Below, in pieces: positions 53-21,208 of a stretch of 44,314 nt of DNA. The notes beneath the pieces are model-generated. The model had not been told where the DNA came from, searched no databases, and was given only the letters and a program-made list of their open reading frames with translations. Source of the DNA: Candidatus Altarchaeota archaeon (GTDB lineage: Archaea > Altiarchaeota > Altiarchaeia > IMC4 > QMZM01). Every line of letters starts with the position of its first letter. Within the stretch, counting starts at the first letter, position 1. A program made the position numbers and the translations under genes. The stretch spans positions 1 through 44,314 of the forward strand of contig JAFGDV010000043.1 in the NCBI GenBank assembly GCA_016931955.1, written 5' to 3'.

Positions 53-934
53 ATGAAACACATAACAATTGCATTAATCACGTCACTGTTGCTGCTCAGC
101 GGATGCACACAGGAAACACCGGAAAATACGACAACACAGACAAAGTACTGCGACGCACAAACACCCTGCACAGAGGGAGACTGCATCCAATTCGAAGAAA
201 TGAGTTACGCATACTGCTACACAGGAGACCCCTGCCAAAAATGCCCCACAAAAAAATGCAACATCATAGAAACAAACCCAAAACAGATAACATGCACCAC
301 AGAATACTGCACAGAAAAAACACTGGAAAACTGTGACACAAAAAAAGTAAACATAACAGGAGAAATCAAACCCAGCAAAACACTATTCCTATGCAACATA
401 GAAAACAAAACAATAAAATACACGTGGCTAGGAAACTGCATACAAATCACCAACCCAGAAAACATACCACCCGAGACGATAAACAAAAAAGCAGAAATCA
501 TCGGCACAATCAACGCCTCCAAAGGAGAAATCTGCGGCGCCACACGAGTCGAACAATGCGCAGGAAAATACCACCCAACAAAGATAAAAATAGAAAAAAT
601 CAAAGTCAAAGAAGAAACGACGACTACCATGACGACCACGACAACCATGACGACGACAATAGGCTGCCCACCAATAACAACGCCAAGCCAATGCACAGAC
701 ACCGACAGAGGAATAGACACACAACAAAAAGGAACAATCACAGGATTCATCGGAATGCCCAGCGCAAGCTACAACCACACAGACACCTGCCTAAACCAGA
801 CAACAATAAAAGAATACTACTGCAATAGAACCTGCAACTGCCGCGGAGAATGCATAATCAGAGAGGCCAGCAAAGAAATAAAGTGCCCAGAAGGCTACTA
901 TTGTGCTGACGGAGAATGCAAGAAAAACATGTGA
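53..934 (+). CDS. Cysteine-rich surface lipoprotein with Thr-rich linker
   Basis: The 293-residue product starts with a short hydrophobic signal ending in a lipobox (LLSGC, Cys about 18), so it should be a lipid-anchored exported protein. The N-terminal part (residues 30-85) is rich in cysteines. Residues about 100-185 may form a small beta-barrel-like module. A Thr-rich linker (residues about 190-203) follows, and a C-terminal Cys-rich module carries the spacing KGT-x(n)-DTC-x(n)-EYYC ending in YYCADGEC. A related module is found in the lipoprotein at 1974-2729. I see no catalytic motif. No Shine-Dalgarno sequence precedes the ATG. Its function is unknown; adhesion or ligand display is a guess. 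Confidence 0.75.
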   Translation: MKHITIALITSLLLLSGCTQETPENTTTQTKYCDAQTPCTEGDCIQFEEMSYAYCYTGDPCQKCPTKKCNIIETNPKQITCTTEYCTEKTLENCDTKKVNITGEIKPSKTLFLCNIENKTIKYTWLGNCIQITNPENIPPETINKKAEIIGTINASKGEICGATRVEQCAGKYHPTKIKIEKIKVKEETTTTMTTTTTMTTTIGCPPITTPSQCTDTDRGIDTQQKGTITGFIGMPSASYNHTDTCLNQTTIKEYYCNRTCNCRGECIIREASKEIKCPEGYYCADGECKKNM

Positions 935-952
935 CCACAAAAAAGAAGACGA

Positions 953-1909
953 CTAAGAGAAGTCGTCCTCGTAGGCGGTCACCAGGATAATCCAATCCCA
1001 GTCAGGGAAATAAGAGAAAGCCGCAACCTTCCTCTCCGCCTCAGAATCCCAACTATCCTTCCAAGTGTAATAATACACGCCAGTCTCCCAATCACGCAAG
1101 TACTCAGCCCTATCAATAATGTCCTGGATGAATAAAGTACCATTCGACATCCTAAAATGTCTGATATTCTCCCCATCCCTCCGCCTCTCGTATGAGAGAA
1201 CATAGTCCCCATCTGAATCAATAATCCAAAAATAGCCCCGATCCCCAGTAGATACCTTAGCAAGGTTATTCTTCACTGTCTCCTGGTACTCATTCTCAGG
1301 AACCCCGACAGCTAATACTCCGATGACCTTATTATTATCATCCCTGATAGGCTCATAGGCAGTCAAATAGTATCCATTAACCATAAATGCCCTACCATAA
1401 TAAGTCTGACCCTTCATCACCGTCTCATAAACCACGGAATCAGAAGGGATATAAGTGCCGACAGCGCGCGAACCATCCAGATTAAGAACATTAGTGGAGA
1501 CCCTCAACAAACCATTAGGGATGACCTGAAAAATAGTGGCAGTACCGCCAACCATAGACTGGACGTCGTCAACGACCTCATAGTTATAGGCGACGTCCCT
1601 GCCATTGATCTGAAAAGCCGAAACAGATATATCCTGACGCGCCCCAGTGACCTGATTAACCACTGTAAAATCCATCTCCTTCGAAAAATTAAGATATGGT
1701 TTGCCCTCAGAATAAAGAACACTCCGAGCAACATTCAAGTCAGAGTTAACCTTGCTCTGAGCAATCTCATAGACGTTCTCAGCATACTTCGAGGCAAGCA
1801 AGGCTTCCTCACTCAACCGATCCTCCAAAACAGAAGAATCCCTCCCCTCACCAACACAGCCAACAAACAAAAACAACAACAAAAACGAAAACAAAACACG
1901 AAAATCCAT
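953..1909 (-). CDS. Free-standing Cache-domain lipoprotein
   Basis: The 318-residue protein has a signal with lipobox (LFVGC). The rest matches the extracytoplasmic double Cache sensor (Cache_3-Cache_2 type) of chemoreceptors. Recognisable segments are the VGGTATIFQ strand, LRVSTNV, RAVGTYIP, the YYGRAFMVNGYYLTAYEPI core and IGVLAVGVPE, followed by a second PAS-like lobe starting near GDRGYFWIIDSDGDYVLS. No transmembrane helix, HAMP, kinase or methyl-accepting domain follows; the chain stops after the second lobe. It probably binds a small ligand at the cell surface and hands it to, or signals through, another protein. It is transcribed toward the lipoprotein gene at 53-934, with 18 bases between the stops, and diverges from the dockerin lipoprotein. 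Confidence 0.8.
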   Translation of the reverse strand: MDFRVLFSFLLLFLFVGCVGEGRDSSVLEDRLSEEALLASKYAENVYEIAQSKVNSDLNVARSVLYSEGKPYLNFSKEMDFTVVNQVTGARQDISVSAFQINGRDVAYNYEVVDDVQSMVGGTATIFQVIPNGLLRVSTNVLNLDGSRAVGTYIPSDSVVYETVMKGQTYYGRAFMVNGYYLTAYEPIRDDNNKVIGVLAVGVPENEYQETVKNNLAKVSTGDRGYFWIIDSDGDYVLSYERRRDGENIRHFRMSNGTLFIQDIIDRAEYLRDWETGVYYYTWKDSWDSEAERKVAAFSYFPDWDWIILVTAYEDDFS

Positions 1910-1973
1910 AAAAAACTATTACAACAAACAACAATAAAAAGATTAAATACTGGGAGAAGTAAATAGTAGTGAG
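1910..1973. promoter_or_regulatory. Divergent promoter region between two lipoprotein genes
   Basis: This AT-rich 64-base spacer separates the minus-strand Cache lipoprotein and the plus-strand dockerin lipoprotein. The stretch around 1938-1949 (AGATTAAATACT) is a plausible TATA element for the plus-strand gene, about 25-30 bases before its ATG. I see no clear operator. Confidence 0.4.
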
Positions 1974-2729
1974 ATGAAAGCAGACCTGAAGACACTACAA
2001 ATACTAACAACAACACTAATACTGCTATGTGGATGCACCATAGAAGAAACAGAAGACACGACGACGAGGATAAAAGTGAGAACAGTGCCCGAGACAACGA
2101 CGACCACAACGACAACGACGACAACAACAACCATACCGCCAGGATACTGCATAGACTCAGACAACGGAGAAAACCCCTTCCAAAAAGGAACAACCGAAGA
2201 ATACGGCGGAGCCACCAGAGAAGACACCTGCACAGACGAAAAAACACTAATAGAATGGGTCTGCGAAAACAACAAAGCAAAAAACATAACACACCACTGC
2301 CTACAAGGATGCACAGAAGGAAGATGCCAACTAACAAGCACGACAACGACAACAACAATGACCACTACAACCAAGAAAACGACGACTAGCAGCACAACGA
2401 CCAGCACAACAACGACAACCACAACGAGCAGTACGACGACTAGTACTACCACGACGACAACAAGCACAACGACTACGACGACTACAACAACTACAACCTC
2501 GACGACTACGACGATACCCTACAGGCCGCCGCCGTGCGGCAACTACGGAGACATAGACGATGACGGATACGTGACAGAAGAAGACGTAGAAGAAATAACC
2601 CAAAACATGGAAACCACGCCACTGAACAGAGGAGACGTCAACGCAAACGGGATAATAGACCCCACAGACATCGCACTAATAATACAATACGTCAACCGAC
2701 AAACAGACACCTTCACAGCATGCAGATAA
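1974..2729 (+). CDS. Dockerin-type lipoprotein on Thr-rich stalks
   Basis: The 251-residue exported lipoprotein has its lipobox LLCGC near residue 21. A short Thr linker (about 39-52) is followed by a Cys-rich module (about 56-121) of the same type as the C-terminal module of the protein at 53-934: DSDxG, KGT, DTC, CxxGC. A second, roughly 60-residue Ser/Thr stalk follows. The last 65 residues carry two calcium-loop repeats, GDIDDDGYVTEEDV and GDVNANGIIDPTDI, each followed by a helix, which is the signature of a type I dockerin. Dockerins bind cohesins, so this protein may dock another surface protein; no cohesin is seen in the window. GTGAG lies just before the ATG. Confidence 0.8.
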   Translation: MKADLKTLQILTTTLILLCGCTIEETEDTTTRIKVRTVPETTTTTTTTTTTTTIPPGYCIDSDNGENPFQKGTTEEYGGATREDTCTDEKTLIEWVCENNKAKNITHHCLQGCTEGRCQLTSTTTTTTMTTTTKKTTTSSTTTSTTTTTTTSSTTTSTTTTTTSTTTTTTTTTTTSTTTTIPYRPPPCGNYGDIDDDGYVTEEDVEEITQNMETTPLNRGDVNANGIIDPTDIALIIQYVNRQTDTFTACR

Positions 2730-2736
2730 AAAAAAG

Positions 2737-3177
2737 ATGAAGTACACACCCATAGGACGAATACACACACCCTACCGACTGGGAGACGAAGTGCCGAGAC
2801 AAGCAGCACTATCCGAGACAGAAGGACTCATAGAAGTATACCCAGAATACGCTGAAGGATTGAAGGACTTGGAAGGATTCACACACATCATAGTACTATA
2901 CCTATTCGACAAAATAAGGGGATACGATCTAACAGTCACAACACCCTGGGACGAAAAACAGAGAGGACTATTCGCAACCAGAGCACCGAGAAGACCCAAC
3001 CCCATAGGAATATCAACAGTAGAAATAAAAGAGATAAAAGAAAACAAGATAAAAATCAAAGGAGTCGACATGCTAGACCAAACACCCCTCCTAGACATAA
3101 AACCCTACATACCAGAAATAGACGAAAGAAAAAACACAAAAACAGGATGGATAGAAGACAAAATACAGAAAAAATGA
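2737..3177 (+). CDS. trmO: tRNA N6-methyltransferase TrmO (TsaA/UPF0066)
   Basis: The 146-residue product matches the single-domain TrmO family, which uses S-adenosylmethionine to methylate N6 of t6A37 in tRNA-Thr. The family hallmark RGLFATRAPRRPNPIGIS is present at about residues 76-94, together with the N-terminal IGRIHTPY strand and the C-terminal VDMLDQTPLLDIKPYIPEID segment. Length is normal for archaeal members. It starts 7 bases after the preceding lipoprotein stop and overlaps the next gene by ATGA, so the three may share a transcript. Confidence 0.92.
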   Translation: MKYTPIGRIHTPYRLGDEVPRQAALSETEGLIEVYPEYAEGLKDLEGFTHIIVLYLFDKIRGYDLTVTTPWDEKQRGLFATRAPRRPNPIGISTVEIKEIKENKIKIKGVDMLDQTPLLDIKPYIPEIDERKNTKTGWIEDKIQKK

Positions 3178-3620
3178 AAACACTGATAGCATATTATTCA
3201 AGGACCGGTAACAACAAAAAAATAGCTGAAAAATTAAGGGAAAAACTAGGATGCGACATAGACGAGATACAAGAAGAAGGAAAACCCGGGCTACTGAAGG
3301 CCGGACTAAGCGCCCTACTGAAGAAAAAAACAAAGATCAAGACAGAAAAAAATCCAGAAAACTATGATTTAACAGTGGTGGTTTCACCGATATGGGGTGG
3401 CGTGATAACCCCCGCAGCAAGAACCTACCTACAAGAGAACAGTGACAAAATAAAGGAGGTAGCGTTTCTCTCAGTGTCGGGAAGCGGGGAAGAAAACAAG
3501 AAAGCATTAGAAGACTTCGAGAAGACGATAGGAAAAAAGACAAAGGCTGCACTTCTATTGAAGGACAAAGAAGAACAAGAAAAAAAACTGGAAAAATTCG
3601 CTGAAGGCCTAAAAGACTAA
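3174..3620 (+). CDS. Flavodoxin-family protein
   Basis: The 148-residue protein begins MKTLIAYYSRTGNN, the FMN phosphate-binding loop of flavodoxins. The second FMN loop is around VVVSPIWGGVITPAARTYL, and the strand-turn AFLSVSGSG follows. The expected role is single-domain electron transfer with FMN. The ATG at 3174 overlaps the trmO stop (ATGA); an in-frame upstream start exists, but the conserved fold begins here. The gene runs into the deaminase gene on the other strand, with overlapping stop codons. Confidence 0.85.
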   Translation: MKTLIAYYSRTGNNKKIAEKLREKLGCDIDEIQEEGKPGLLKAGLSALLKKKTKIKTEKNPENYDLTVVVSPIWGGVITPAARTYLQENSDKIKEVAFLSVSGSGEENKKALEDFEKTIGKKTKAALLLKDKEEQEKKLEKFAEGLKD

Positions 3621-14686: not shown

Positions 14687-14738
14687 GTTTCAGTTTCTGT
14701 TACAGTTGTTTCAGTCTAGGATATAGCGTGTTTCATCG
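14687..14738 (+). promoter_or_regulatory. Four-repeat operator / promoter, copy 1
   Basis: The heptamers GTTTCAG (14687), GTTACAG (14699), GTTTCAG (14708) and GTTTCAT (14730) occur in direct orientation. A TATA-like GGATATAG (14719-14726) sits between the third and fourth. The same elements with exactly the same spacing are found at 15992-16043. Overlap of the repeats with the TATA box suggests control of transcription initiation of the gene at 14770. The likely regulator is the winged-helix protein encoded between the two sites; that link is inference. Confidence 0.75.
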
Positions 14739-14769
14739 AAGTAATCAAAAAAAAAAGAGGTGAAATTGG

Positions 14770-15213
14770 ATGGAAAAAAAGTTTCTGGTTGCCGGCTTCG
14801 CAGCCCTCCTCATAGCAGGATTTGTGGTTGCTGGGGCTACGATGCGCGGCGGAAGACCGGGTCTTCCAGGGGCTCCTGGAGATCATACAGCCATGCTGCA
14901 AGACCTCGGTTTATCCGAGAACTCAACCCCTGAGGAAGTAAGAGAAGCCATGTTTAACAGGAGACTGGAGGAACTAGGCCTGACGGAGGACTCCACAATA
15001 AAGGAGCTGAGGGAGGCTATGGAAGCAAAGAGTCAGACCATGGGGGAGGAAAGACTGATGGACTTAAAGGAAAGGCTTGGCCTATCAGAGGACGCAACCG
15101 AGGAAGACATAGAGGAAGCCCTCAAAGAAAAACAGGGAGACTGTAAGGTATTTGGCCGCGGGAGAGGACCACATGACAGGGGAATGGGACTCTCCATCTA
15201 CGACATCATTTGA
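14770..15213 (+). CDS. Small exported protein with three helical repeats
   Basis: The 147-residue product has an N-terminal hydrophobic signal (residues 4-23) and then three copies of a roughly 20-25-residue acidic motif: LGLSENSTPEEVREAM, LGLTEDSTIKELREAM and LGLSEDATEEDIEEAL. Each looks like a short helix-turn-helix pair. The C-terminal tail is Gly/Arg/His-rich with one Cys. I do not recognise the family; a metal-binding or scaffold role outside the membrane is possible. A strong GAGGTG site precedes the ATG by 7 bases. It lies directly behind operator copy 1 and is closed by a hairpin-plus-T terminator, so it is a single-gene unit. Confidence 0.8.
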   Translation: MEKKFLVAGFAALLIAGFVVAGATMRGGRPGLPGAPGDHTAMLQDLGLSENSTPEEVREAMFNRRLEELGLTEDSTIKELREAMEAKSQTMGEERLMDLKERLGLSEDATEEDIEEALKEKQGDCKVFGRGRGPHDRGMGLSIYDII

Positions 15214-15263
15214 GGACAAACCCGCACACAAGATGTGCAGCGTGTCCTCTTCTTTTATTTTTC
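15212..15263 (+). terminator. Hairpin plus T-rich terminator
   Basis: The arms GAGGACA (15212-15218) and TGTCCTC (15243-15249) pair, with an inner stem GCACA/TGTGC (15224-15228 and 15234-15238), followed by the T-rich stretch TTCTTTTATTTTT. The structure starts at the stop codon of the preceding gene, consistent with transcription termination. Confidence 0.65.
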
Positions 15264-15296
15264 TAAACCGATATAGTAAGGTGTGAGGTGAAACAG

Positions 15297-15566
15297 GTGA
15301 GTACAACAACAACACTCTTCAATCGTACCGCAAGAGAGTTAATGGATCGAGGTCGAGCACCCTTCTTCGGGCCTGAATTATTCGGCATACCGACCTTCTA
15401 CCTATGGAATCTGTTGGTGGTATTGATCATCGCGTTGATCTTCTACTGGCTCCTAAGAAGCTCAAGAATACATGAAACCCCGATGGATGTCTTAAAGAAG
15501 AGATACGTTCGAGGAGAAATAGACAAAGAAACCTTTGAGGCCATGAAAAAGGACATAACGGATTGA
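15297..15566 (+). CDS. SHOCT-domain membrane protein
   Basis: This 89-residue protein (from the GTG at 15297) has one transmembrane helix (LWNLLVVLIIALIFYWLL) and a C-terminal SHOCT domain: DVLKKRYVRGEIDKETFEAMKKDI. SHOCT is a short helical tail common in small membrane proteins and thought to help oligomerisation. I prefer the GTG at 15297 because GAGGTG lies 6 bases upstream; the GTG at 15288 overlaps that site. It is almost fused to the next gene, a membrane-anchored regulator, so the two may work as a complex. A TATA-like CGATATAG lies at 15269-15276. Confidence 0.82.
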   Translation: MSTTTTLFNRTARELMDRGRAPFFGPELFGIPTFYLWNLLVVLIIALIFYWLLRSSRIHETPMDVLKKRYVRGEIDKETFEAMKKDITD

Positions 15567-15568
15567 AG

Positions 15569-15979
15569 ATGGAAGTCTCCGAGAAGCGGCTTGCTGTGGC
15601 AATAATCGCGGTATTCTGTCTGGGCGTGATGCTCTCCATAATAAACGGATACTACATAGAGGATACCGGGTCCTCGATACCCTTGACGGTCTACGCCATG
15701 ACCGCCGTCGCAATGGTTGTTGGGGCGTTAATCGTCCTATTGTTCCAGTGGAAGATCAGCCAGAAACAGATGCAACGACTACTGAAAGCACTGCCAGAGG
15801 ACGAACACAAGATAGTTGAATTGCTACTGAACGACGGGAAGATGGAGCAAACATATATTGTGGCGGAAAGCGGCCTCTCGAAGGTGAAGGTTTCAAGGAT
15901 CCTGGCGAAACTGGAGCAGAGGAAGGTAATAGAGAAGAAACCCTTAGGGAACACCAATTTGATAAAGCTAAGGATATGA
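15569..15979 (+). CDS. Membrane-anchored winged-helix transcription regulator
   Basis: The 136-residue protein has two N-terminal transmembrane helices (residues about 8-29 and 37-60) separated by a short extracytoplasmic loop, then a cytoplasmic winged-helix DNA-binding domain (about 70-136). The helix-turn-helix is AESGLSKVKVSRILAKLEQRKVI and the wing is EKKPLGNTNLIKL, a MarR/TrmB-like arrangement. A sensor-regulator that reads the envelope and binds DNA directly from the membrane fits best. The ATG at 15569 follows the SHOCT stop by two bases; an overlapping TTG at 15563 is possible. Operators with identical repeats lie on both sides of this two-gene operon. Confidence 0.85.
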   Translation: MEVSEKRLAVAIIAVFCLGVMLSIINGYYIEDTGSSIPLTVYAMTAVAMVVGALIVLLFQWKISQKQMQRLLKALPEDEHKIVELLLNDGKMEQTYIVAESGLSKVKVSRILAKLEQRKVIEKKPLGNTNLIKLRI

Positions 15980-15991
15980 CACTGCAAGGCT

Positions 15992-16043
15992 GTTTCATTT
16001 TATGTTACAGGAGTTTCAGTGCAGGTTATAGGTAGTTTCATCG
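15992..16043 (+). promoter_or_regulatory. Four-repeat operator / promoter, copy 2
   Basis: GTTTCAT (15992), GTTACAG (16004), GTTTCAG (16013) and GTTTCAT (16035) are arranged as in copy 1, with the TATA-like GGTTATAG (16024-16031) between the third and fourth. Offsets from the first repeat are 12, 21, 32 (TATA) and 43 bases in both copies. It precedes the EF-hand lipoprotein and MacB-like operon. Confidence 0.75.
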
Positions 16044-16070
16044 TTCTACTTGCATAGGTGAGGGAAAAAC

Positions 16071-16427
16071 ATGGAGAAGACATGCACAATACTATGTATC
16101 CTCATCATATGCTGCGGATGCCTGAGCAGCCAGGAAACGGTTCAAGAGGAAGAACGGGAAATACCCCAAGGAGGGTATGGTGGGAGAAAACCCCCAGGCA
16201 ATATGACACCAGATATGAGGCCTCCTGGCAATATGACTCATGGTATGAGAGGACTGGGCTTGGATATGACAGAACACGATCTAGATGGTGACGGCCTTCT
16301 CAGTGAGGAAGAAATGATCGCTGCCCGAGAAGCCATGATGGATAATCCTCGATTCATCGAGAGAATCGACTCAGACGGAGACGGCATATTAAACGAAGAA
16401 GAAAAAAACAAAAAACCAACTCAATAA
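16071..16427 (+). CDS. EF-hand lipoprotein
   Basis: The 118-residue exported lipoprotein has its lipobox at ICCGC. Residues 40-65 hold a Gly/Pro/Met-rich repeat (PPGNMTPDMR, then PPGNMTHGMR). Two calcium-binding EF-hand loops follow: DLDGDGLLSEEE and DSDGDGILNEEE. It probably binds calcium at the cell surface; the Met-rich repeat could bind a soft metal, but that is speculative. It is the first gene of an operon with a CARDB-type protein and a MacB-like ABC pair, directly behind operator copy 2. GTGAGG precedes the ATG. Confidence 0.82.
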   Translation: MEKTCTILCILIICCGCLSSQETVQEEEREIPQGGYGGRKPPGNMTPDMRPPGNMTHGMRGLGLDMTEHDLDGDGLLSEEEMIAAREAMMDNPRFIERIDSDGDGILNEEEKNKKPTQ

Positions 16428-16440
16428 AGGTGATAAAAAA

Positions 16441-18108
16441 ATGGGAAAAACAACAACGTATGGGATTATTGTGTTGTTCCTATTCGCTGTAGGGGCATGC
16501 GCTGTCAGCGCATATGATGCGACGAATGTGGTAGTAGACTTCGACAAAACAGAGGCTGATGAAAGCCTGCTAGCAGGCGAAAGCGGCGTCCTGAATCTGG
16601 TCATAAAAAATACTGGAGACTATGACGCAGAAGACGTTGAAGTATGGATTCAAAGTAATGCAAAAATAACCTCAAGTAAGAGGCTCTACGTAGGGGTGAT
16701 AGAAGGCGGAGAGTCTAAAACCCTGCTTTTAACGCTGAAGGTAAATGACGACGCAGCCACGGGGCTCGCAGTCATACCAGTAGAGATAAGCTACGACGGA
16801 TACGATAAATACGAGAGACGGAAATATGACCAGCACACGAGCTGGCAGATCCCTCTTAGGATAGAAGGCGACCCGCTGTTTCAGGTAAAACCAGCTAAGA
16901 CGACATTCTACAGAGACAACGTGGATGAGCTGATTCTACAAGTAAAAACAGAGAACTCTGTGAGGAACCTGCAGGCAACCCTGACATCAGAATGCCTGAC
17001 CATAATAGGCTCGTCTAGGGCGTATATTGGAGACATCAACACTGGGAAAGAATTCAACATAACATATGATATAAAGCCGACCGAGGAAGGGGCGTGCACC
17101 GCAGATCTGACGCTAAGCTATTCAGATTCCTTCGGCAGCAAGACAAGCGACGAAATAAACATCGGATTAAACATCGAGGAAGCCGGAGTAGATTTCAGGA
17201 TAACGAACATCAGTTATGATGCGACGGGTCCGGGCCAGACCATGAAACTAAGGCTTTCAGTGAAGAACGTAGGAGAAGCAGATGCAAAGGACACAACCCT
17301 CTCCCTGTCGCTCTCAGACCCCTTCACGACAGCGGACACAACGGAGAAATATGTTGGAAGAGTGAATGCGGGAGAAACAGTGGACGCAGAATTCAATCTT
17401 GCGGTCTCATGGGACGCTGAAACAAAGGTATACTCTGTCCCACTGAACATAGGATACAAGGTCGGCGGTACATCATACACTGCCAAGAAAGACGTTGGAG
17501 TGGACGTTGGTGGACAGGTCAGGTTGGAGATAATCAATGTAGAATCCAGCAGGGGCTCGCTGCAGGTCGACGTAGCCAACGTAGGCACCAGGACCGCGGA
17601 GAGCATTAAGGCGACATTAGTTGTCGGGGATGGAGCAAGATTTGTGAGCTCTTCCACCGCAAGCCAGACAACACGCCAGACCGGCGGCGGCTTAGGAATA
17701 ATACCTGGAATGGGTCGCAGCAGACCCACTACTTCAGGGGATACTGGAAACACCGACCAAACACCCCAAGCTATGGAAGCAACGAACACGTCAGGTCAAC
17801 CCCAGACCTACGTCGCCTATAAGTCGGACATCAAGCCGACAAAGCAGACCACGTTCACATTCGACGCCAGCATCTCAGGGACAGCAACCCTGGTCTTCGA
17901 ATACACTGGAGCCAACAACGAGAGGATAACTCAGAGAGAACAGATAAGCCTGGGTGGAACGAACTCTATGACTGGAGTGACTGGATTCACTGCGGCAACA
18001 GGCTCCAGGGGCAGCACCGGAATAACAACATATCTCATCTACGGAGTGGCTGTTTTGGTGGTTGTTTTCGTCGCATATAAGTTGTATAGGAAACGAAAGA
18101 ATAAGTGA
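16441..18108 (+). CDS. Exported CARDB/NEW3-repeat protein with C-terminal membrane anchor
   Basis: The 555-residue protein has an N-terminal signal (residues 6-23), several immunoglobulin-like beta repeats of the CARDB/NEW3 type seen in archaeal COG1361 surface proteins, and a C-terminal transmembrane helix followed by KLYRKRKNK. Repeat markers are NLVIKNTGDYDAEDVEVWI near residue 50, LRLSVKNVGEADAKDTTLSL near 270, and a third near 370 (LQVDVANVGTRTAESIKATL). A Gly/Thr/Gln-rich stretch (about 415-460) links to the last repeat. COG1361 proteins are often encoded with FtsX/MacB-like permeases, as here; it may be the extracytoplasmic partner of the transporter. It follows the EF-hand gene by 13 bases. 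Confidence 0.82.
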   Translation: MGKTTTYGIIVLFLFAVGACAVSAYDATNVVVDFDKTEADESLLAGESGVLNLVIKNTGDYDAEDVEVWIQSNAKITSSKRLYVGVIEGGESKTLLLTLKVNDDAATGLAVIPVEISYDGYDKYERRKYDQHTSWQIPLRIEGDPLFQVKPAKTTFYRDNVDELILQVKTENSVRNLQATLTSECLTIIGSSRAYIGDINTGKEFNITYDIKPTEEGACTADLTLSYSDSFGSKTSDEINIGLNIEEAGVDFRITNISYDATGPGQTMKLRLSVKNVGEADAKDTTLSLSLSDPFTTADTTEKYVGRVNAGETVDAEFNLAVSWDAETKVYSVPLNIGYKVGGTSYTAKKDVGVDVGGQVRLEIINVESSRGSLQVDVANVGTRTAESIKATLVVGDGARFVSSSTASQTTRQTGGGLGIIPGMGRSRPTTSGDTGNTDQTPQAMEATNTSGQPQTYVAYKSDIKPTKQTTFTFDASISGTATLVFEYTGANNERITQREQISLGGTNSMTGVTGFTAATGSRGSTGITTYLIYGVAVLVVVFVAYKLYRKRKNK

Positions 18109-19289
18109 AGATGATAGACGTAGCCTTAAAGAACGTATTCCGGCAGAGGGTGAGAAGCGGCCTCACCATACTGGGGATAGCGATAGGTATAGGCTTGATC
18201 CTGGCATTAGGCGCCATCGGCGAAGGACTGAACAAACAGATCAGGGAATCATTCGGCGACATAGCAGGAGTCATAGACGTCAGAGCCGATTTTGAAAACG
18301 ATGAAGGCATCAGCGACGACGTGATCGAAGGAATAAAGAAGATCGATGGTGTGACCAGCGTCGTACCTGTCGGAGAATACCAGATCAGAAGAGGAAGCCG
18401 AGGAATGGGCGGCATGATGTTCAGGTTCGGGGGAGTTGGGGGAGCATCTATGACCTTCACCGGCATATTCCCAGAAGACCAGGACTACCTCATAGGGGAG
18501 CATATCATAGCGGAGGAAGGCAGGAAGCTCGACGAATCAGATGATAGAGAATACGTTGTTGTCTTAGGTAGCACTACTGCAGAAAACCAGTACCTCAACC
18601 TAGGGGATGAGATCGAGTATGAGAGGAGAGAGGATGGAGAAGACGAAGAAATAGAGAGCTACTACTTTGAGGTGATAGGTATCCTGGAAGAAACCGGAGA
18701 CAGCAGCATAGACGAAGCCGCTTTTGTACTATTAAGGACGATGCAGGAACTCGAAGACGACGAAACAATAACCAGCCTTAAGGTCAGGATCAGCGACGTC
18801 GAATTGGTCGAGACCATCACGGAAGACATAAATTACTACTCCGATGAAGTGATGGCGTCCTCACCTCTGTCGATGGTCAGGAACATGGAGTCGACGCTTT
18901 CGACGCTGCAGATGGCAGTCTACGGGATCGCTGCAATATCCCTCCTAGTCGGCGGCATCGGGGTCATGAACACGATGATCATGTCGGTTATGGAGCGCAG
19001 ACGAGAGATAGGGGTGATGAAAGCCATCGGGGCGACAACGACGACCATACTTATTCAGGTACTTGAGGAGTCAGCTTTTCTGAGCGGAATAGGCGGATTA
19101 ACAGGTCTTATGCTCGGCTACGCCTCAACAGGGATCATAACACAGTACACGACCTTTACAACTATACTGACGCCGGAACTCATCTCCTTAGGCCTGGGGT
19201 TTTCAGTGATACTTGGCATGGGTGCTGGATTATATCCCGCATGGAGTGCTTCCCAATTGGATCCAATAGAGGTGCTGCGATATGAATAA
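18105..19289 (+). CDS. MacB/FtsX-type ABC transporter permease
   Basis: The 394-residue permease has the MacB layout: one N-terminal helix (GLTILGIAIGIGLILALGAIG), a large extracytoplasmic domain (about residues 45-265), then three C-terminal helices. The family segment GIAAISLLVGGIGVMNTMIMSVMERRREIGVMKAIGAT is present. The end, YPAWSASQLDPIEVLRYE, is the standard FtsX C-terminus. Such transporters expel or release lipids, peptides or lipoproteins by mechanotransmission. The start is GTG overlapping the previous stop, or the ATG at 18111. The ATPase gene overlaps its 3' end by 8 bases. Confidence 0.9.
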   Translation: MKMIDVALKNVFRQRVRSGLTILGIAIGIGLILALGAIGEGLNKQIRESFGDIAGVIDVRADFENDEGISDDVIEGIKKIDGVTSVVPVGEYQIRRGSRGMGGMMFRFGGVGGASMTFTGIFPEDQDYLIGEHIIAEEGRKLDESDDREYVVVLGSTTAENQYLNLGDEIEYERREDGEDEEIESYYFEVIGILEETGDSSIDEAAFVLLRTMQELEDDETITSLKVRISDVELVETITEDINYYSDEVMASSPLSMVRNMESTLSTLQMAVYGIAAISLLVGGIGVMNTMIMSVMERRREIGVMKAIGATTTTILIQVLEESAFLSGIGGLTGLMLGYASTGIITQYTTFTTILTPELISLGLGFSVILGMGAGLYPAWSASQLDPIEVLRYE

Positions 19290-19959
19290 TGGAGAAATAG
19301 TCTGCACGGGCCTGGTTAAGACCTACAATGTGGGACAACCTAATGAATTCAAGGCACTTAGGGGCTTGGACTTAACACTATCCGAAGGCGAATGTGCAAG
19401 CATCATCGGGCCCTCAGGTTCTGGGAAATCAACGCTCCTGAACTTGATGAGCTGCCTTGACACGCCAACAGAAGGCGAAGTCTACATAGAGGGTATTGAC
19501 ATCAATTCATTGAACGGCTTCGAGAAGGCCCGGCTTAGAAGAGAGAAACTGGGATTCATCTTCCAGCAGTTCAACCTCATAAGGGGGATGACATCCTATG
19601 AGAACATCGAGCTACCCATGAGATTCAAGGGTCTGCCCCCCAAGGAGAGGAAGAAGCGAGTCACCGAATTATTAGATCTCTTCGGCTTGGAGGGAAAGGA
19701 AAGAAACAAACCCACCGAATTATCTGGAGGAGAACAACAGAGGGTCGCGATCGCAAGGGCACTGGCTAACAACCCAAAGATCATCCTAGCAGATGAACCA
19801 ACCGGAAACCTTGACACAAAAACAGGGGAAAAAATAATGGACCTGCTCCTGAGACTTAACCAAGAGGAAAAGAAAACACTCGTCATCGTAACCCACGATC
19901 AGAGGATAGCACAGCAAACATGCAAGGTGGTAGAGATACAAGACGGCAGAATAAAATAG
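19282..19959 (+). CDS. MacB/LolD-type ABC transporter ATPase
   Basis: The 225-residue ABC ATPase has Walker A GPSGSGKST, the Q-loop segment LGFIFQQFNLI, signature LSGGEQQRVAIARALA and Walker B ILADEPTGNLDTKTG, all typical of the MacB/LolD/FtsE group. It overlaps the permease gene, so the two form one transporter. The stop lies 7 bases before the convergent serpin gene. Confidence 0.92.
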   Translation: MNNGEIVCTGLVKTYNVGQPNEFKALRGLDLTLSEGECASIIGPSGSGKSTLLNLMSCLDTPTEGEVYIEGIDINSLNGFEKARLRREKLGFIFQQFNLIRGMTSYENIELPMRFKGLPPKERKKRVTELLDLFGLEGKERNKPTELSGGEQQRVAIARALANNPKIILADEPTGNLDTKTGEKIMDLLLRLNQEEKKTLVIVTHDQRIAQQTCKVVEIQDGRIK

Positions 19960-19966
19960 GGACAAA

Positions 19967-21208
19967 TCAACCCGCAGTCGGATCGCTGACCCTCCCCAGG
20001 AACAGGATATTCCCAGAGGACTTCTGCTGGATAATAAAGATGAAGGGGTGATCTGCGTTAAAGATTATCCTCTCCTGTGGTTCTGGCGTGGCACTCAAAG
20101 TCATTATCACCGCCGTAGCCGCAGCAGCCTCCGTGCCCTCCTCATTAACCCCGACGAAGGCCTGATGGATGACGCTGCTTATATAGAGGTCGCGTTTCCC
20201 ATCCATCCCAGAGAAATCCGCCTCATATGAGAATGCAGTCAGCATGCCCATCGCCTTTAAGGTTTCGGCCATAAAATACTTGGTCTCGAACTTGAATCGG
20301 GGCAGATAGAGTTCATCTATCTTCTCCTCCCTGAGGGCCTTCCGCCACGCTGAGAGCTTCTCTGCGGAGAGAGACTCCTCCAAGGAAGTTATGTCGTCGT
20401 CTTTAGGTAGGAGTATCAGCATCGACAGTTCACCGCCGGAATAAGGCAATTCCAGGATCTGCGCATCAGCAGTTTCAGTGTAGTTGAAGTCTTCCATGAA
20501 CATGGACATCATATCAACTTTGACTGTTTTCTCTCCACCCACCCTAAAGTCGCGTTCCTCAGTCAGCGATTCATTAAACTGCTTAACCCAGGTGCCTTTA
20601 AAGTATATCGCATTGGTGAGGACCAGACGCGTCAAAGGAGTGATAGCTCCAGACGGGATCAGATCCTTTATCTTGTCGTTCGTGTGCTCTTCAACCCAAC
20701 TATTTATTGTCATGCGAGACTTCTCTGTTTCCAAGACAAAGTCCAAGTTCGTCGCTTTTCCACTATAGTATTCTTCTACGACTTTGAAGTATTCTGGAAG
20801 GAACACAAAGTCTCTCTGCGCCCACAAGGCGTTCGCAGTGCTCAGTGCATACGCCTTTCCTTCTCTGTTGATCTCTGCGTTGGCTGCGGAGAAACCTTGC
20901 CTGCGCCCAGAATCATTCTCCGGGAAATGGAAGACTGCCTGGATCTCCTCCGCCGTCTCTCCTCGAGCACCCTCATAGGTCATAGCCAGAGCAGATGAGA
21001 TACTATAAGGCGAAAAAAAGACGTTACCTTCCTGCGACTTATATTCTGAGTAGAGTTCGAAGGCGAACCGGTTGTTGGCTTCCACGACGCCGGATGCGGA
21101 GCTAGATGTTGTATTATCCCTATTTTCCTGCGTATCGATGCAGCCGCATAGGAAGACATCCAATACGAGCGCTGCAATAGTCAATGAGATCATAATCTTC
21201 AAATCCAT
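19967..21208 (-). CDS. Serpin (serine protease inhibitor) lipoprotein
   Basis: The 413-residue protein has a signal with lipobox FLCGC, then a full serpin domain: NVFFSPYSISSALAMTYEGARGETAEEI, FVLTNAIYFKGTW-type strand (LVLTNAIYFKGTWVKQF), LPRFKFET and the C-terminal ADHPFIFIIQQKSSGNILFLGRV. The hinge of the reactive loop (residues about 356-372) is EEGTEAAAATAV, with small residues as needed for loop insertion, so it should be inhibitory. Counting 17 residues from the hinge Glu puts P1 at Ser372 (Leu-Ser-Ala). It would protect the cell surface against serine or cysteine proteases. It converges with the MacB-like operon. Confidence 0.94.
   Translation of the reverse strand: MDLKIMISLTIAALVLDVFLCGCIDTQENRDNTTSSSASGVVEANNRFAFELYSEYKSQEGNVFFSPYSISSALAMTYEGARGETAEEIQAVFHFPENDSGRRQGFSAANAEINREGKAYALSTANALWAQRDFVFLPEYFKVVEEYYSGKATNLDFVLETEKSRMTINSWVEEHTNDKIKDLIPSGAITPLTRLVLTNAIYFKGTWVKQFNESLTEERDFRVGGEKTVKVDMMSMFMEDFNYTETADAQILELPYSGGELSMLILLPKDDDITSLEESLSAEKLSAWRKALREEKIDELYLPRFKFETKYFMAETLKAMGMLTAFSYEADFSGMDGKRDLYISSVIHQAFVGVNEEGTEAAAATAVIMTLSATPEPQERIIFNADHPFIFIIQQKSSGNILFLGRVSDPTAG

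Follow-up and report, generated by a model that had tools for sequence, protein, structure and literature searches.

A conserved putative GTTTCA operator and a predicted membrane-anchored winged-helix regulator: a candidate self-regulated envelope regulon in Altiarchaeota

Two arrays of the word GTTTCA in the genome of a Candidatus Altarchaeota archaeon are, with a probability of roughly 75%, operators of the predicted membrane-anchored winged-helix regulator that is encoded between them, and would belong to a self-regulated envelope regulon. They are located in a window of 44,314 nt (contig JAFGDV010000043.1, assembly GCA_016931955.1; genome size 1.55 Mb), by which we mean the whole stretch of DNA that was analysed. 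Comparison across genomes shows the putative operator to be conserved, to be held in a promoter position and to be paired with a regulator family and its candidate target genes. All evidence is comparative, and the genomes compared are mostly incomplete MAGs.

The two putative operators and their genes

The locus comprises the following features:

14687..14735, + strand: operator 1, with GTTTCA at 14687, 14708 and 14730 and the inverted half-site TGTTAC at 14698-14703
14721..14727, + strand: TATA-like element ATATAGC of operator 1, flanked by boxes 2 and 3 (offset 34-40; conserved across 23 sites)
14770..15213, + strand: small exported helical protein of 147 aa, first gene downstream of operator 1
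15212..15262, + strand: hairpin followed by a T-rich run, between the exported-protein gene and the SHOCT-regulator pair (-17 kcal/mol, z -3.7)
15288..15566, + strand: membrane protein with a C-terminal SHOCT domain (PF09851, E 2.4e-8; the start may be 15297)
15563..15979, + strand: regulator, two N-terminal hydrophobic helices followed by a winged helix (DUF7343; PF24034, E 3.3e-15; likely start ATG 15569)
15992..16040, + strand: operator 2, with GTTTCA at 15992, 16013 and 16035 and the inverted half-site TGTTAC at 16003-16008
16026..16032, + strand: TATA-like element TTATAGG of operator 2 (offset 34-40)
16071..16427, + strand: EF-hand protein with a lipobox-like signal, first gene downstream of operator 2 (PF00036, E 1.7e-6)
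16441..18108, + strand: CARDB-repeat exported protein with a C-terminal hydrophobic helix (PF07705, E 1.1e-11)
18105..19289, + strand: MacB/FtsX-type ABC permease (PF12704 and PF02687)
19282..19959, + strand: LolD-type ABC ATPase (PF00005; LolD model 238.7 bits)

An earlier note on this DNA had described the heptamer GTTWCAK as occurring four times at the same offsets (0, 12, 21 and 43) in both places. This is exactly what is found (14687, 14699, 14708 and 14730; 15992, 16004, 16013 and 16035), and comparison of the flanks bears out that the two operators have little sequence in common beyond this pattern. The TATAG element that had been placed at offset 32 begins at offset 35; what begins at offset 32 in both operators is GGNTATAG. 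As a single word, GTTWCAK is not enriched in the window (26 occurrences versus 21 expected). Quadruples with the operator spacing are expected about 7e-10 times in the window, and the full spaced pattern, allowing for up to three mismatches, matches only operators 1 and 2 in the 1.55-Mb genome, in which the reversed-pattern control has no match. With two copies in 1.55 Mb, the spaced motif is not scattered over the genome, a point on which the earlier note had made its reading depend. A further copy in reverse complement, TGAAACA at 15289-15295, to which the note had pointed as a sign of autoregulation, does exist but is absent from the same place in the near relatives L036 and L037, and is therefore probably due to chance.

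The hairpin and T-run at 15212..15262 possibly constitute a terminator or attenuator, which may lower read-through into the SHOCT-regulator pair. Because this element intervenes, it is uncertain whether operator 1 drives the whole operon of exported protein, SHOCT protein and regulator. The equivalent hairpin is weaker in L036 and none is convincing in L037, so that it is convincing only in the window. The structure model of the 147-aa exported protein (pLDDT 58.6) is too poor for fold comparison. The ATPase of the second operon scores 238.7 bits with the LolD model TIGR02211, versus a curated cut-off of 307.75, and is by this measure a LolD-type relative rather than LolD itself. Convergent to the transporter operon lies a gene for a full-length serpin with a lipobox-like signal (19967-21208, - strand; PF00079, E 2.9e-126), which is not preceded by a GTTTCA array in the window. 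Serpins are unusual in archaea.

Conservation of the putative operator within the Altiarchaeota

A search for three GTTTCA words at offsets 0, 21 and 43 across 29 genomes of the phylum revealed 23 sites in 12 genomes and none in the remaining 17; the reversed control yielded no site among the 29. Orthologues of the regulator are encoded in nine other genomes (60-82% identity), and sites occur in all ten orthologue-bearing genomes, the window's own included, as had been anticipated for a motif that accompanies its regulator. The two motif-bearing genomes without an orthologue are MAGs of 60% and 75% completeness, in which the sites are positioned before the exported-protein gene or near the CARDB operon. 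The sites of the phylum are not independent of each other, since the orthologues are close (mean column identity of 76% among 11 aligned sequences). No site is present on the 8.7-kb locus of the next relative (L035, 53% identity). Tandem or fused regulator-like proteins with about 32-45% identity to the window regulator are found at L045, L046 and L047 (G019, G018 and G021), and no GTTTCA array is present at these pairs.

The alignment of the 23 sites refines the architecture of the operator. GTTTCA is exact at offsets 0, 21 and 43 in 20 of them. The second element is TGNNAC at offset 11 (11-16) in 19 of the 23 sites, whereas GTTWCA at offset 12 occurs in only four, for which reason TGNNAC is better taken as an inverted counterpart to box 1. 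The previous description as four direct repeats thus stands for the three GTTTCA boxes and gives way to an inverted half-site for the second element; a direct GTTWCA box at offset 12 was rejected as a general rule. The second regulator subfamily described below is accompanied by GTTWCA boxes in direct orientation, 10 bp apart. Judged from the alignment, the conserved unit is composed of three direct boxes and one TGNNAC half-site, and the size of GTTTCA-N5-TGNNAC suggests a fit to a winged-helix dimer.

Across the 23 sites, an AT-rich TATA-like element (WTATNKC) occupies offset 34-40 between boxes 2 and 3, so that the core promoter has boxes on both sides. If the distance from TATA to start is the one usual in archaea, transcription would begin near offset 62, which corresponds to predicted starts near 14749 for operator 1 and near 16054 for operator 2. 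In L038, an ATG at offset 63/64 of the array fits a leaderless transcript with such a start. The distance from the first base of the site to the start codon is usually 58-146 nt (median 82); one site, L043:4860, has no clear start codon downstream.

Nearly all sites are located upstream of the exported protein (exp147), the SHOCT-regulator pair, a small lipoprotein-like protein or the CARDB-MacB-LolD operon. Both the autoregulatory arrangement and the target set originally proposed for the window (exported helical protein, SHOCT partner and transporter operon) recur in relatives. In L044, the first gene downstream of the site encodes a 258-aa protein without family. An expansion of the system is seen in L038, where three SHOCT protein genes and two operators are packed into a short stretch (865-3294).

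In five genomes of the phylum (G004, G008, G010, G016 and G019), a second two-helix regulator is encoded divergently to the CARDB-MacB-LolD operon; its DUF7343 domain is confirmed in G004, G016 and G019, and in G008 and G010 the contig end truncates the regulator. The gap between this regulator and the operon contains GTTTCA or GTTACA boxes in other spacings, and most of the genomes that have the MacB operon without the 0/21/43 array likewise have boxes in another spacing. The target operon therefore keeps the word although the regulator differs.

The regulator and its family in other archaeal phyla

The winged helix of the regulator matches DUF7343 (PF24034) with 56.1 bits at a gathering score of 27.6, and its homologues from other phyla are likewise above this cut-off. 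In the AlphaFold model, the helices span residues 2-33 and 39-74 and the winged helix residues 77-134; the two long hydrophobic helices are judged from the sequence and from this model of moderate confidence (pLDDT 74, pTM 0.45). Fold comparison places the modelled winged helix closest to MarR/ArsR proteins, and the scores with the Pfam models of the MarR family are below the thresholds (MarR_2, 24.1 versus 27; MarR, 20.9 versus 24.6). Transmembrane transcription regulators (TTRs), which combine a DNA-binding domain and TM helices in one protein, are widespread in archaea according to a census (PMC10269533). The regulator has the DNA-binding domain of this class in predicted form. The census provides the definition of the class, and the passages considered here do not describe a regulon or operator for the regulator's family (PMC10269533).

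A pattern search in 394 archaeal genomes detected similar arrays in other phyla, where matches in G390/G097, G316 and G239 were put aside as probable chance. In L075 and L079, the array separates a divergent two-helix DUF7343 regulator from a small exported protein. With the L079 regulator as query, homologues were found in 46 of 297 genomes. In the 200-bp 5' regions of 31 family genes, GTTTCA ranks top among all 6-mers (72 copies): at least two copies are present in 21 of these regions versus 6 of 333 control windows from the same loci (binomial P about 9e-30, a value that ignores shared ancestry), which leaves 10 family members without two boxes. Other DUF7343 or winged-helix genes rarely have boxes at their 5' end (2 of 18). 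Boxes of the same orientation are most often 20, 21 or 22 bp apart and inverted ones 11 or 12 bp, several regions containing a perfect GTTTCA-N5/6-TGAAAC, and a TATA-like sequence is positioned just upstream of the last box, as in the Altiarchaeota. Many of the box-bearing family members have, as seen by eye, a recognition helix with a motif resembling K[VLI][KR]x[SH]R, which apparently pairs with GTTTCA.

A model for promoter control

The two N-terminal helices would serve as the membrane anchor of the regulator, and its C-terminal winged helix would read GTTTCA, one dimer presumably binding the half-site pair GTTTCA-N5-TGNNAC. The second and third GTTTCA boxes, placed 21 and 43 bp after the first (one step of 21 and one of 22 bp), would lie on the same helix face on either side of the TATA-like element, so that bound regulator should cover the core promoter. 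In this manner, the regulator may control the operon in which it is encoded together with the exported helical protein and the SHOCT protein, as well as the lipoprotein-CARDB-MacB-LolD operon, which would result in a feedback loop around the cell envelope. Physical binding of the regulator, its dimerization, the envelope signal and the sign of control are what we infer from the conserved arrangement.

Concerning the sign, repression at rest and release upon a membrane or surface signal is slightly favoured over activation, because box 3 directly follows the TATA-like element and a protein bound there should clash with TFB and polymerase. Proteins bound between TATA and start normally block initiation in archaea, and at every site box 3 follows the TATA-like element and precedes the predicted start. 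The same regulator and operator might instead act as an activating pair, in which TBP/TFB are brought to a weak TATA element by the upstream boxes upon a membrane signal and autoregulation is positive. This option, the less probable of the two and still a serious one, is suggested by the TATA-like element WTATNKC, which seems weak in comparison with several tRNA promoters of this genome (e.g., TTTATAAAT); moreover, two boxes are located upstream of the BRE position, and ArnR, a well-studied membrane-bound archaeal regulator, activates via paired inverted repeats (PMC6396743).

Other readings concern the factor or the origin of the sites. The GTTTCA arrays could be bound by another factor, the regulator being a mere neighbour or target, given that its binding to GTTTCA is predicted from sequence and that other wHTH genes are found nearby in some loci, such as an ArsR-like gene in L075. 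Boxes are, however, present at the 5' end of regulator-family members across many gene contexts, are rare at other DUF7343 genes (the 2 of 18 mentioned above) and accompany the MacB operon also where the first family member has given way to a second, which makes this reading improbable. If promoter DNA had recently been duplicated locally, or if the sites were a mobile repeat devoid of regulatory meaning, the recurrence of the same offsets and similar boxes within 1.3 kb would be explained, yet this reading hardly merits belief: the flanks share little, and the same spacing is found in 12 genomes of two families before different genes. Chance or repeat DNA as the origin of the two sites was rejected on the basis of the spacing statistics, the flanks and the conservation in the phylum.

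The preferred reading, operators of the regulator encoded between them, can be extended to a widespread and possibly ancestral archaeal envelope regulon, in which a membrane-tethered regulator, bound on both sides of the TATA box at a spacing of 21-22 bp, switches the promoter by altering the engagement of TBP and TFB with the bent DNA, and the exported helical and SHOCT proteins serve as feedback sensors; this extension is speculative and rather unlikely in its full form.

Relation to known systems

To our knowledge, few archaeal membrane-bound regulators have a known operator. A search of the open-access literature retrieved neither a publication on DUF7343 nor one on GTTTCA as a promoter motif in archaea. 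The nearest known system in its way of working is ArnR/ArnR1 of Sulfolobus acidocaldarius, membrane-bound one-component regulators (PMC6396743). As is predicted for the window regulator, ArnR is archaeal, membrane-bound and of helix-turn-helix type, controls surface structures and has an operator of paired inverted repeats with a 5-bp spacer, TCGAC-N5-GTCGA (PMC6396743). In ArnR, the HTH is N-terminal, HAMP and sensor parts are present, and two TM helices form the C-terminus (PMC6396743); the window regulator has the reversed domain order and no sensor region, and thus does not share the ArnR-family architecture. The window system also differs in its operator word, in its targets (a MacB-type transporter and an exported helical protein) and in the boxes that straddle a TATA-like element. 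EarA of Methanococcus resembles it in operator layout, with multiple 6-bp boxes at an archaeal promoter: EarA has four copies of a different box, TACATA, and activates archaellum genes (as cited in PMC6396743).

The DUF7343 family, to which Pfam assigns no function, gains from this analysis a predicted DNA word, promoter geometry and target genes across archaea, including uncultivated lineages. The system is a testable candidate for archaeal envelope monitoring and for control of MacB/Lol-type transporters, and the apparent pairing of K[VLI][KR]x[SH]R with GTTTCA could serve for regulon prediction in further genomes. In bacteria, ToxR/CadC and Cpx exemplify membrane-tethered or membrane-sensing control of surface genes; they are alike in small exported proteins and MacB/Lol-type transporters, a resemblance by analogy.

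Gene neighbourhoods in other phyla

Neighbours of the family genes in other phyla include small exported proteins (alignment A3), SHOCT membrane proteins and, at L094, L100 and L104, LolD-type ATPases. Thioredoxin-like membrane proteins, heavy-metal ATPase-type genes and a His-rich exported protein together with a DUF4405 protein are also found, the last pair hinting at metal or redox links. Genes for the His-rich exported protein and the DUF4405 membrane protein are located near arrays at L077 (292-892), L087 (239-574) and L089 (2370-2666). In L075 (8739-10306, G314), the regulator is followed by an ArsR-like gene, a thioredoxin-like gene and a permease. In the exported protein of L034/L038, the repeat of the window protein is, by eye, apparently joined to the GDYxxW module of the other-phylum protein.
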